The notes beneath the pieces are model-generated. The model did not search any database. It worked only from the letters and a program-made list of their open reading frames with translations, and had not been told where the DNA came from. From an uncultured Rhodospirillales bacterium (GTDB taxonomy: Bacteria; Pseudomonadota; Alphaproteobacteria; RF32; CAG-239), in the NCBI GenBank assembly GCA_902761715.1, contig CACWLK010000006.1, positions 1-64,000 on the forward strand: DNA of 64,000 nucleotides. The letters are read 5' to 3'. How positions within the stretch are numbered: the stretch's first letter is position 1; each line of letters opens with the position of its first letter. Of this stretch, positions 12,264 through 16,667 are shown one piece after another. A program made the position numbers and the translations under genes.

Positions 12264-12704
12264 CTACTCCACTACCTTAATACCCATTGAAACAGCTTGA
12301 CCTTTAACCATGTTCATAGCGGCTTCAACTGTTGAACAATTCAAATCCGGCAATTTAGCGGTAGCAATTTCTTTTACTTGAGCCATTGTAATTTGGCCGG
12401 CAAAAGATTTGCCCGGTTCTTTAGAAGCGGATTTAACTTTAGCAGCGGTCTTAATATAATAAGCAACCGGCGGCAATTTTGTAACGAAAGTGAAAGACTT
12501 GTCTTCATAAGCCGTAATCACAACCGGAACAGGAACACCCGGTTCCATCTTTTGTGTAGCAGCATTGAAAGCCTTACAAAATTCCATAATATTCAAGCCT
12601 TTTTGGCCCAAAGCCGGACCAACCGGAGGAGAAGGGTTTGCCTTTCCAGCGGGGATTTGCAGCTTGATTAATCCTAAAATTTTCTTTTTAGATTTAACAG
12701 CCAT
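12264..12704 (-). CDS. rplK: 50S ribosomal protein L11
   Basis: 146 aa. The proline-rich N-terminal domain ([20 protein letters not shown]) is followed by the rRNA-binding C-terminal domain. Binds the GTPase-associated region of 23S rRNA. Here it is the first gene after the island, with its own promoter at 12814-12841, instead of following nusG directly. Confidence 0.98.
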
Positions 12705-12841: not shown

Positions 12842-12875
12842 GCAATTTCTTCACTCGCCACAATTTTATTTATAA

Positions 12876-14099
12876 TTATTTATTTTCAGCATGATAATCA
12901 ATATGACAATCTTTACACAACATAAGGCAGTTTTCAATCGTGGTTTCTCCACCATCAGCAAAAGCTTTTTTATGATGTCCATCAAGTTCTTTTAGCGGAA
13001 AAGGTTTGTGACATCTTGCACATCTTTTTCCTTGATTTTCATAAGCTTGCTTCTGTTGACGCTCGCTGAAAGCACGGTGCCAAATCAGTGTTCTGTCACC
13101 GGACAAACAATATTCGTAAAAACCTTTCTTTTTCAACCCATCGGGATCAACATCGAATAAATCATAAAGATATTTCAATTTTTCTTCTATTTCCGCTGGC
13201 TCAAAGTTTATATCATGGTATTTATTATATAAAAATCCCCAATCAAGCCCTTTCATGTCTGAACGATAGTTAATAAAAGTGTTTTTAACCCAATTAACCA
13301 CTTTTTGGAAATAATTAACAAGCTCGTCAGCATTCTTATCAAAACGATGTTTTCCCATATAGTCTTTTATTTGCGGATATTCTTCCATGTCAGCATCTAT
13401 ACGCCAGTTGAGTGCAAGCTCCAGCAACAGTTGGCGATTGGCTTTGTCTCCGAGACTTCCCATATCTCCCAAAACTTTATCAGCACTCAAATTCAGCAGA
13501 GTTTTTTTATTGTCGTTATCATAATAAGAAATATTTATGGCTTCATTATTATTTTTTTTAGAAAAGAATTGCTTGGCGGAAGTGAGCCATTGTCCTGTGT
13601 AATTGGCATTTAGAAGTTCTTGATTGGTCATTTGTTTGCCGGCAATGTTGATAGTATGAAACCAATCCAATTTTTCATCATCAGTACCTTCACAAACATA
13701 AATTTGCAACTTATAGTCCAAAATATCCTTTTGTTTTTGAAGCGATAAGCCCTCAAAAATTTGCGTATGCTTACCATTGAAATCAATAGCAATCGGGTTG
13801 CCAAAACCATCATCATTGGTAATAAACTGGCAAATTGAAATAATCCGTTGTTGTCCGTCTATCACTTCATAAGTGCCGTCAGGATTAATTGCCCAATACA
13901 TACTATTTAGAGGCATATTATTATAAACCGAAAGCATAACGCGGTCGCGGTCTTCCGGATTATAAACAAATGCACGCTGATACGCGGGGCGAACATTTAA
14001 TTTTCCACCAAAAGCAACCACGCCTTTTTCGCCATTGTCTTGATAGCCTTTTACTAAATCACGGATAGTAACCACCGGTTGTGAAGTTTTCATCGTCAT
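12876..14099 (-). CDS. DUF262 / HNH endonuclease (restriction-like)
   Basis: 407 aa. N-terminal DUF262 (GmrSD N-domain/ParB-like fold) shows RPAYQR near residue 38, a PLNSMYW strand and the signature IDGQQRIISI. The C-terminal HNH zinc nuclease (from about 360) has CARC, DGHHKKAFADGG, the Asn of ENC, and LCKDCH. In characterised systems DUF262 proteins sense or hydrolyse NTP and target DNA, often modified DNA. Starts 1 nt after the methyltransferase stop, so the pair is a coupled operon. The nuclease half of a restriction-modification or defence system is inferred. Confidence 0.85.
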   Translation of the reverse strand: MTMKTSQPVVTIRDLVKGYQDNGEKGVVAFGGKLNVRPAYQRAFVYNPEDRDRVMLSVYNNMPLNSMYWAINPDGTYEVIDGQQRIISICQFITNDDGFGNPIAIDFNGKHTQIFEGLSLQKQKDILDYKLQIYVCEGTDDEKLDWFHTINIAGKQMTNQELLNANYTGQWLTSAKQFFSKKNNNEAINISYYDNDNKKTLLNLSADKVLGDMGSLGDKANRQLLLELALNWRIDADMEEYPQIKDYMGKHRFDKNADELVNYFQKVVNWVKNTFINYRSDMKGLDWGFLYNKYHDINFEPAEIEEKLKYLYDLFDVDPDGLKKKGFYEYCLSGDRTLIWHRAFSERQQKQAYENQGKRCARCHKPFPLKELDGHHKKAFADGGETTIENCLMLCKDCHIDYHAENK

Positions 14100-14100
14100 G

Positions 14101-15051
14101 TTATGATTTCCTTTTGATTAAAATTCGCAGATATTTTGATTTGCCGTTAATTTCTGTTAAGTGAATATGATTCGCCTTTGCCCAATCATTAACTTTTGCA
14201 ACATCTAAAATTGTATAACGATTTAAGCCATCTATTATTTCAAATTGTTCTGGATTATATTTATCCATAAAAGTTATCGGTACACCCATCACACCATCAT
14301 AATCCATCGGAATATCACTGACTTTATCAACATTAATAGCATCATAGTTATCATAATGCGGATACATATTTTCATAACCATAAAATTTTTTGCCGGTACT
14401 AATGATTTCATTTCTTCGACTGTTCTCTAAATTTGTGTACCAACTAACATTACCAAAATTTTGAACTGAGCCATCAGGTTTGCAAAATTGTTTGACATGA
14501 TTTAAGCCACACCAGAATTTGTTTTCCTTAATGAGCGGAAAAATTTCTTTATAGGTGCGGCAATTATCATTCCCGATAATCAAGAATTTCTTTTTATACT
14601 CCATCAGTTGTGCAACATACTCGCGGAACAGCGAAAATGGCGGATTGGTAATCACTATATCTGCTTGTTTCAGGAGTTCTATACATTCGGGGCTGCGGAA
14701 ATCACCATCGCCTTTCATTGGAATTTCGGCAATATCTTCAAAACAAATAACACCATCGCCGGTGTTGTCCTTATCCAAGATATACATCGTTGAGTGGTCC
14801 TTATCTTTTTCATAATGAGTGGCAATCACTTTTTTGATTTGAAAAGCCTCAAAATTATCGGCCAGATATTTCAAAAAATTCGATTTCGGTGTTCCCAAAC
14901 CGATTCCGTTATGGTCATCACAGTTACAATAAATTATTTTGCCCTTAAAATATTTAGCATAATTAACTAATTCTTTTTTGATATCTTCATAGCCGGTATA
15001 AAATTCATCATCTTTGTTTCCATCTGCCGCACGTAAGCTCGCATTTCCCAC
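14101..15051 (-). CDS. EcoRI-family adenine-specific DNA methyltransferase
   Basis: The longer ATG frame (15087) would start inside a terminator stem. The GTG at 15051 has GGGAG 7 nt upstream and gives 316 aa. Recognisable blocks: DDEFYT (14-19), the SAM-side motif YCNCDDHN (41-48) and catalytic NPPF (136-139), followed by KKFLIIGNDN. This layout matches the EcoRI methylase family, N6-adenine methylation. The recognition site cannot be read from sequence. Partner of the downstream DUF262-HNH gene rather than of an EcoRI-type nuclease. Confidence 0.88.
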   Translation of the reverse strand: MGNASLRAADGNKDDEFYTGYEDIKKELVNYAKYFKGKIIYCNCDDHNGIGLGTPKSNFLKYLADNFEAFQIKKVIATHYEKDKDHSTMYILDKDNTGDGVICFEDIAEIPMKGDGDFRSPECIELLKQADIVITNPPFSLFREYVAQLMEYKKKFLIIGNDNCRTYKEIFPLIKENKFWCGLNHVKQFCKPDGSVQNFGNVSWYTNLENSRRNEIISTGKKFYGYENMYPHYDNYDAINVDKVSDIPMDYDGVMGVPITFMDKYNPEQFEIIDGLNRYTILDVAKVNDWAKANHIHLTEINGKSKYLRILIKRKS

Positions 15052-15066
15052 AGTCCATCTCCCAAC

Positions 15067-15094
15067 AAAAAATCGCCTTTGGTGCAAAAGGCGA
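15067..15094 (-). terminator. Intrinsic terminator 15 nt before the methyltransferase start
   Basis: A perfect 8-bp stem TCGCCTTT/AAAGGCGA with a 6-nt loop, followed on minus by six T. There is no room for a promoter between it and the GTG start at 15051, so methyltransferase transcripts must read through it. It probably acts as a regulated attenuator. Confidence 0.85.
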
Positions 15095-15276
15095 CTGGAA
15101 GCTGAAAACTACTCGTTGGGAATAGCGGGCATATTGATTTAAACAGGGTATAATAACCCCTATATAAACTTATTAGCCTCCTTCCAGTCGTGAGACCAGA
15201 AGGAGTTTTTACGCCAATGGTATTGGCAACCAACGATGAGGTTTTCAGTCCTCGGGGCAGACACCAACCTGCCTTG
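15067..15276 (-). ncRNA. Structured leader or small RNA before the methyltransferase operon
   Basis: About 210 nt in minus orientation. Hairpins: GGCAG/CTGCC (15256-15273), GCCAAT/ATTGGC with a 3-nt loop (15213-15227), a 12-bp stem with two G-U pairs and a 4-nt loop (15178-15205), GGGT/ACCC (15146-15159), then the terminator. The 18-nt block GTTTTCAGCTTCCAGTCG (15092-15109, read on minus) is exactly complementary to two earlier, separate segments: 8 nt at 15241-15248 and 10 nt at 15181-15190. The pairings cross, giving a pseudoknot or a switch with the 12-bp hairpin. Class unknown to me. Confidence 0.65.
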
Positions 15277-15282
15277 ACTATG

Positions 15283-15310
15283 AGGTTAAACGATAAGAAG
15301 TAAAAAGCAA
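15283..15310 (-). promoter_or_regulatory. Candidate promoter of the structured RNA/methyltransferase unit
   Basis: Minus-strand TTGCTT (15305-15310) and TAACCT (15283-15288), 16 bp apart. The expected start near 15276 falls immediately before the first hairpin. The -10 is imperfect but the same hexamer fits the pheA promoter here. Confidence 0.4.
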
Positions 15311-15341
15311 GTAAATTTTTATAAAACAACTTTCCTGCAAC

Positions 15342-15386: not shown

Positions 15387-15857
15387 TTACTTTGTTGCTT
15401 TGGCTTTTGCCGGCTTTTTAGCAGCTTCAAGCTCTGAAGTACAATGCGGACAACGTGTTGCATTGATGTCAATTGTAGACATGCAATACGGGCATTGCTT
15501 TGTTGTCGGAGCAGCAGCTTCGGCATCAGCAGCTTTTTTATCAACTGTAGATTGGATTTTATTCAGAGCTTTAATCAAAATAAATACTGAAAAAGCAACA
15601 ATCAAAAAGCTGATTAAAGCGTTAATAAATAAACCGTAGTTGATAGCAACAGGATTCTCCCCTGCCGACAAGACCAACTTCAAATCAGAAAAATCAACTT
15701 TACCCAACAGCAATCCAATCGGCGGCATCAAAACATCTTTAACCATAGAGTCTACGATTTTACCGAAAGCGGCACCGATGATGATACCGACAGCCATGTC
15801 AATAACATTGCCACGCATTGCGAATTGTTTAAATTCAGAGAAAAAAGATTTCAACAT
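15387..15857 (-). CDS. mscL: Large-conductance mechanosensitive channel, with C-terminal zinc ribbon
   Basis: 156 aa. Residues 1-100 are a standard MscL: amphipathic N-terminus, TM1 with the pore-lining [20 protein letters not shown], and TM2 near 73-97. An extra tail carries two CxxC pairs (Cys122/125 and Cys136/139), resembling a zinc ribbon, followed by an Ala/Lys end. Releases osmolytes under membrane tension. The tail lies in the cytoplasm and its role is unknown. It sits between nusG and the restriction-like island. Confidence 0.95.
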
Positions 15858-15934: not shown

Positions 15935-16465
15935 CTAGACCTTTTCAACTTGACCAAATTCAAGTTCAACCGGCGTAGAACGCCCGAAAATAGAAACCGA
16001 CAATTTCAGGCGGGATTTCTCAACATCAACGTCCTCAACCAAACCGATAAACGATGCAAACGGACCGTCGCAAACACGAACTTGTTCACCAATTTCGTAC
16101 TTAACAATCGTCTGCGGACGCTCAACACCTTCCTCAATCTGCTTAATAATGCGATTTGCTTCCGCATCAGAAATCGGCAACGGTTTATTACGAGGACCTA
16201 AGAAATTTGTAACACGAGGAGTATTTCTGATTACCATCCAGGCATCATCAGACATTTCCATTTTGACCAAAACATAGCCCGGAAAGAACTTACGCTCGGA
16301 ATTGACTTTTGAGCCTTTCTTAACTTCGACAATATTTTCGGTTGGTACCATAACTTCCAAAATTTTGTCTTGCATATTTTTCAATACGGCTTGTTCTTTC
16401 AGAGATTCGGCAACTTTTTTCTCCGAACCAGAATATACATGCACGACATACCAACGAGCAGCCAT
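15935..16465 (-). CDS. nusG: Transcription termination/antitermination protein NusG
   Basis: I use the ATG at 16465 (MAARWYVVHVYSGSEKKV, 176 aa), with AGGAG overlapping the secE stop, rather than the TTG at 16486. The N-terminal NGN domain contains FFPGYVLVKMEMSDDAW, and the C-terminal KOW domain contains VCDGPFASFIGLVEDVD. Binds RNA polymerase and links to Rho or the ribosome. The start lies 13 nt after secE. Confidence 0.98.
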   Translation of the reverse strand: MAARWYVVHVYSGSEKKVAESLKEQAVLKNMQDKILEVMVPTENIVEVKKGSKVNSERKFFPGYVLVKMEMSDDAWMVIRNTPRVTNFLGPRNKPLPISDAEANRIIKQIEEGVERPQTIVKYEIGEQVRVCDGPFASFIGLVEDVDVEKSRLKLSVSIFGRSTPVELEFGQVEKV

Positions 16466-16478
16466 TACAATCTCACTC

Positions 16479-16667
16479 CTAACCAAAGATTAACTTAACA
16501 ATAAAGCCGAACAGCTGATCTACACAAAAGAAAAACGCTGCGGCAATAGCCACCAACACCAAAACCATTATTGAAGTTTGAGTAACTTCTTTTTTGGTTG
16601 GCCATGTAACTTTTTTAACTTCTTGTTTTACCTGCTTAAAAAACAGAATTGGATTAACTTTTGCCAT
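16479..16667 (-). CDS. secE: Preprotein translocase subunit SecE
   Basis: 62 aa, the short single-span form. Amphipathic FFKQVKQEVKKVTWPTKKEV precedes one transmembrane helix (about 34-58). Clamps SecY in the inner-membrane Sec channel. Upstream of nusG as usual. A CGTCTC/GAGACG hairpin lies in the leader (about 16700-16724). Confidence 0.97.
   Translation of the reverse strand: MAKVNPILFFKQVKQEVKKVTWPTKKEVTQTSIMVLVLVAIAAAFFFCVDQLFGFIVKLIFG

Follow-up and report, generated by a model that had tools for sequence, protein, structure and literature searches.

The DNA analysed here, a stretch of 64,000 nucleotides from an alphaproteobacterium of the gut and referred to below as the window, carries two adjoining genes that encode an M.EcoRI-family adenine methyltransferase (M) and a nuclease (R) in which a DUF262 domain is combined with a C-terminal HNH domain. 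The pair is a real and widespread two-gene module for distinguishing self from non-self DNA. Judging from sequence comparisons, the module most probably operates as a restriction-modification (R-M) system in the manner of type II, where M would protect the host and R would cut DNA unmethylated at the same motif.

The gene pair and its chromosomal islet

The features of the locus are collected in Table 1. M matches the EcoRI_methylase family PF13651 along its entire length (Pfam, 4.2e-107) and has kept the NPPF motif. The M stop codon and the R ATG are 1 nt apart, the order is M then R, and the two minus-strand ORFs are intact, with neither a frameshift nor the loss of a catalytic residue in either protein. 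The original prediction had read the gene content in this way, as an M.EcoRI-family methylase spaced by 1 nt from a DUF262-HNH nuclease, and both Pfam and the ORFs agree with it. The GTG codon at 15051 is more likely to be the M start than the TTG at 15087, because the latter falls within a terminator-like hairpin.

Table 1. Features of the M-R locus (positions in the window).
Feature	Position	Strand	Basis or remark
R, restriction nuclease, DUF262/GmrSD_N + C-terminal HNH, 407 aa	12876..14099	-	Pfam, PADLOC
DUF262 (GmrSD_N) domain of R, residues 36-167, QR/DGQQR/FxxxN	13599..13994	-	Pfam 3e-19
HNH nuclease domain of R, residues 360-404, CxxC...H376...N390...CxxCH	12888..13022	-	PF01844, 1.1e-10
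M, M.EcoRI-family adenine methyltransferase, GTG start, NPPF motif	14101..15051	-	PF13651
Leader RNA, structured, with a terminator-like hairpin at its end, immediately 5′ of M	15069..15275	-	Fold and covariance model
Islet (R + M + leader RNA)	12855..15336	.	Empty-site comparison with L114 and L115; ends approximate by a few nt
rplK (L11), conserved flank	12264..12704	-	
mscL, conserved flank	15387..15857	-	
nusG	15935-16486		Beyond mscL, then secE

In R, the DUF262 motifs QR (residues 41-42), DGQQR (81-85) and FxxxN (147-151), as well as His376 and Asn390 of the HNH domain, were invariant or near-invariant among 51 homologues. The Pfam search found no DUF1524 in R, the C-terminal domain being HNH (PF01844). 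PADLOC assigned R to type II restriction enzymes (PDLC03418 REase_II, 2e-90, residues 7-399) and M, at full length, to type II methyltransferases (2e-100). The EcoRI-R profile gave no match to R, and the SspE profile aligned with it over a short stretch without significance (E = 0.03); the neighbours of the pair are mscL and rplK instead of SspABCD. Against solved structures, R had no more than weak HNH matches, and no relevant structure came up with M.

The window M is ~45% identical to a methylase from an EcoRI plasmid (L021). At alignment position 236 (Met counted) it has Asn, the residue in M.EcoRI being His; the M.EcoRI mutant H235N, altered at this very position, is reportedly a better site discriminator.

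The two genes and the leader RNA form an islet of ~2.5 kb (start ~12852-12855, end ~15334-15336) inserted between rplK and mscL-nusG-secE. No islet is present at this place in two congeners, G008 (rplK protein 100% identical to that of the window) and G012 (99%), where the flanking genes are ~213 bp apart. The GC content of the islet is 0.34-0.36 vs. ~0.42 in its surroundings; no integrase was found within it and no obvious repeats at its boundaries. The host assembly comprises 1.43 Mb, and another family member (G055) encodes an R that is 82% identical to that of the window.

M and R occur together across phyla

A census seeded with M covered the best 80 of 563 genome loci (L028-L107), which represent many phyla and are biased toward the window's M. 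The partner of M was a DUF262-HNH protein in 66 of these 80 loci, an EcoRI-type nuclease in 8 and neither in 6. Within this M-seeded sample, DUF262-HNH is the commonest partner of the M.EcoRI methylase family, contrary to the original prediction that the family usually goes with a PD-(D/E)xK enzyme. The neighbourhood search, which had itself been proposed as a check, also contradicts the possibility that the two genes are rarely found together. Chance adjacency of M and R was considered and is ruled out by the conservation of the pair across phyla.

The M-then-R order is found again in many phyla, in plasmids and in phages, and the two genes frequently overlap by 4 bp. Among 79 distinct pairs, R follows M within -100 to +30 nt in 64 and overlaps it by 4 bp in 25; R lies ahead of M in a single pair. 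Full-length R is present in 4 of 398 Pseudomonadota genomes (the window's genome counted), with M adjoining in all four; in these genomes the scores divide full-length R (at least 394 bits) from other DUF262 proteins (at most 86 bits). Among the plasmids listed, all 40 with full-length R carry M, mostly directly adjacent and in a few cases with 1-3 kb between the genes. M is likewise found in all four phage records with full-length R (3 distinct phages) and in 5 of 5 relatives with full-length R. We saw no full-length R without M in the 40 listed plasmids, the 4 R-bearing genomes of the 398, or the 4 phage records.

Several loci deviate from the simple arrangement. On an Enterococcus dispar plasmid (L194 61-4699), M and R are separated by a predicted optrA resistance gene, and a 309-aa ORF, with the first 60 residues the same, is located between them in two Paludibacteraceae genomes (L031 5165-6094, L041 5625-6554). 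Tandem M.EcoRI-family methylases were seen both with a DUF262-HNH gene (L046 2929-6224) and without it (L085 2734-5041).

M and R co-diversify, as the mirror-tree correlation of their distances was r = 0.49 for 70 pairs, the maximum of 2000 permutations being 0.34. To place the partners on the methylase phylogeny, we used a tree of 92 methylases, midpoint rooted and with no outgroup, and a second version with phage sequences added. The ten EcoRI-partnered methylases fell into one clade (support 0.986, and 0.996 after adding the phage sequences), which under the midpoint root is nested, with good support, among the DUF262-partnered methylases. This rooting makes the EcoRI nuclease look like the younger of the two partners; which partner replaced which is something that we infer, the tree having no outgroup.

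Phages that keep M without R

M without R was found in Mycobacterium phages; two phages from the gut and one Lactiplantibacillus plasmid carry it, again without R, as a fusion with a cytosine-5 methylase (M-Dcm). The M proteins of Marchy and Norz, two of the Mycobacterium phages, share 89% identity with the M that is paired with a DUF262-HNH protein on the Gordonia plasmid pGKT1. The 82% DNA identity between Marchy and pGKT1 spans M and enters the start of R, at which point R breaks off: 46 residues of the 50-residue ORF after M in Marchy (L189 3565-3717) match the R N-terminus (~46 of 382), and Norz bears an ORF of equal length in the equal position (L193 3559-3711). Such a pattern, with R dispensable and M retained, would be expected if methylation served anti-restriction, and it favours protection by M over methylation as a target mark.

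The original prediction had left two alternatives, M as a protector in a type II-like system or M as the maker of a signal that R reads, and the first of them holds up better. In the second, type IV-like (GmrSD-like) version, R would attack the DNA methylated by M. The DUF262 domain is indeed common to R and modification-dependent enzymes (PMC4619093), but a single operon encoding both M and R would then lead to cutting of the host chromosome, and phages that keep M and lose R would be exposed to such nucleases; hence, we regard this version as very improbable.

The M-cytosine-5 methylase fusions are proteins of ~700 aa with the nuclease absent (plasmid, L023 2180-4282; gut phages, L190 622-2748 and L191 609-2717) and are perhaps two-motif anti-restriction enzymes.

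A structured leader RNA precedes M

The leader of ~207 nt lies within the islet, with its 3′ end ~18 nt ahead of the M start, and it folds much more stably than its shuffles (z = -5.75). No Rfam 15 family matched it at the gathering threshold. A copy 89% identical to it is present in the congener G011 (L136 2455-5329), ahead of an N6-methylase/Methylase_S (specificity) pair unrelated to the window R-M genes; the first residues of this G011 pair, MGNENLRNA, resemble those of the window M, VGNASLRAA. The covariance model found matches in 47 of 64 family genomes, with up to 37 copies in one of them (G028), and further ones in alphaproteobacteria of other families, the total for the class being 14 of 240 genomes. 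For 31 distinct leader sequences, in an alignment whose pairing is inflated because it was fitted to the model, 93.1% of cells pair and the covariation score is 0.511 vs. 0.200 for shuffled and at most 0.082 for slid alignments. The copies reside mostly ~0-40 nt upstream of same-strand genes that look like those for glycosyltransferases, outer-membrane barrels, lipoproteins, pilin-like proteins and R-M enzymes. Members of the leader family (L149-L178 and copies from other alphaproteobacteria) are ~170-210 nt long and have a terminator-like hairpin at the 3′ end. The leader may be regulatory, attenuating or antiterminating transcription.

The hairpin between the leader and M would fit a silent module in the window copy, with intact but unexpressed genes held off, for example, by the terminator-ended leader RNA. 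A probable case of the same pair in Prevotella was called inactive (PMC5608340), which also speaks for silence; the absence of frameshifts and of lost catalytic residues in M and R speaks against it. We find silence of the window copy rather unlikely; it would be compatible with the type II-like reading.

Discussion

Three features of type II R-M systems are seen in the pair: a dedicated methylase coupled to the nuclease; a nuclease that is not found without the protective methylase, the methylase being able to stand alone; and a full-length match of R to a type II nuclease profile in PADLOC. What counts against the type II-like reading of R is that, to our knowledge, type II nucleases normally have no NTPase-type domain. 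Two further points weigh in the same direction, namely the lack of GAATTC methylation in a probable Prevotella intermedia counterpart and the number of GAATTC sites in the window, both described below.

We infer the following mechanism, including protection, cleavage, the common motif and NTP gating. M would methylate adenines of a short DNA motif across the host genome, and R would cut DNA bearing unmethylated copies of this motif, such that incoming phage or plasmid DNA would be cleaved. The DUF262 domain of R would probably bind and hydrolyse NTP, thereby gating the HNH nuclease; the analogy with BrxU and SspE, where DUF262 gates the nuclease, suggests this (PMC12707154, PMC10952713). NTP-independent cleavage by R appears doubtful because the DUF262 motifs are intact, and for the same reason R may depend on NTP, which would be uncommon among type II enzymes. 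As to the motif of M and R, GAATTC or a similar sequence can only be guessed at; GAATTC occurs 17 times in the window vs. 14.9 expected and so is not avoided, 64 kb being too little to tell.

The intact DUF262 motifs would also suit an SspE-like mechanism, in which R would detect, via DUF262, the mark that M places on the host, switch on its NTPase and nick unmarked invaders, M being required for R rather than restraining it. SspE is a DUF262 nuclease that depends on host phosphorothioate marks (PMC9646914; PMC10952713), and the absence of R without M fits as well, R alone being useless. However, the C-terminal domain of R is HNH (PF01844) and not DUF1524, the SspE profile match is weak (0.03), and in the EcoRI pairs of the same M family the role of M is clearly protective. 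We therefore hold an SspE-like mechanism to be unlikely and prefer the type II-like one.

The observations may be joined into one reading, which we put forward tentatively as possible: the pairs would form a distinct, widespread R-M class with an NTP-gated DUF262-HNH enzyme, of a design known chiefly among modification-dependent enzymes, acting on unmethylated DNA, and the textbook EcoRI system would have arisen by the substitution of an EcoRI-type nuclease for the DUF262-HNH partner. Because midpoint rooting points to DUF262-HNH as the more ancient partner, the origin of EcoRI becomes testable. The pair joins two nuclease worlds that are kept separate in reviews, the modification-dependent (type IV) DUF262 enzymes and methylase-protected restriction. 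A need of R for NTP would break the type II definition, whereas NTP-independent cleavage would mean that DUF262 does not act as an NTPase switch in every case. In addition, DUF262-HNH pairs are a possible source of new restriction specificities.

The original prediction took the pair as not known to be a described system, and this was correct only in part. The pair is already catalogued as type II by homology, through the PADLOC matches of R and M, and its biochemistry seems unreported. Its probable counterpart is Pin25611FORF1345P of Prevotella intermedia, an M.EcoRI homologue with a 1104-bp nuclease gene just downstream, which was named by REBASE as type II with GAATTC as the predicted site; GAATTC was not found to be methylated in that study, whose authors regard the system as inactive (PMC5608340). 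We assign it to the DUF262-HNH kind from gene size alone, because 1104 bp fits this kind and not EcoRI (834 bp in L021). In the open-access literature, we found no paper characterising a DUF262-HNH enzyme with a cognate M.EcoRI-type methylase, which does not prove that none exists; the papers on DUF262 in Campylobacter and V. cholerae deal with SspE-like and TgvAB systems.

Among the known systems, the type IV enzymes GmrSD, BrxU and TgvAB resemble R in the N-terminal DUF262 domain with QR, DGQQR and FxxxN, but they have DUF1524 where R, a protein of about 360-410 aa, has HNH PF01844. Moreover, the GmrSD family stands alone without a methylase, whereas R always comes with a dedicated one in the samples examined. 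SspABCD-SspE is similar to the M-R pair in coupling a DUF262 nuclease to a host DNA-marking system, and differs in that the mark is a phosphorothioate introduced by SspABCD and that SspE ends in DUF1524. The EcoRI R-M system shares the methylase family PF13651 with the window M; its nuclease, however, belongs to the EcoRI family rather than to the DUF262-HNH kind, and its methylases constitute a separate clade.
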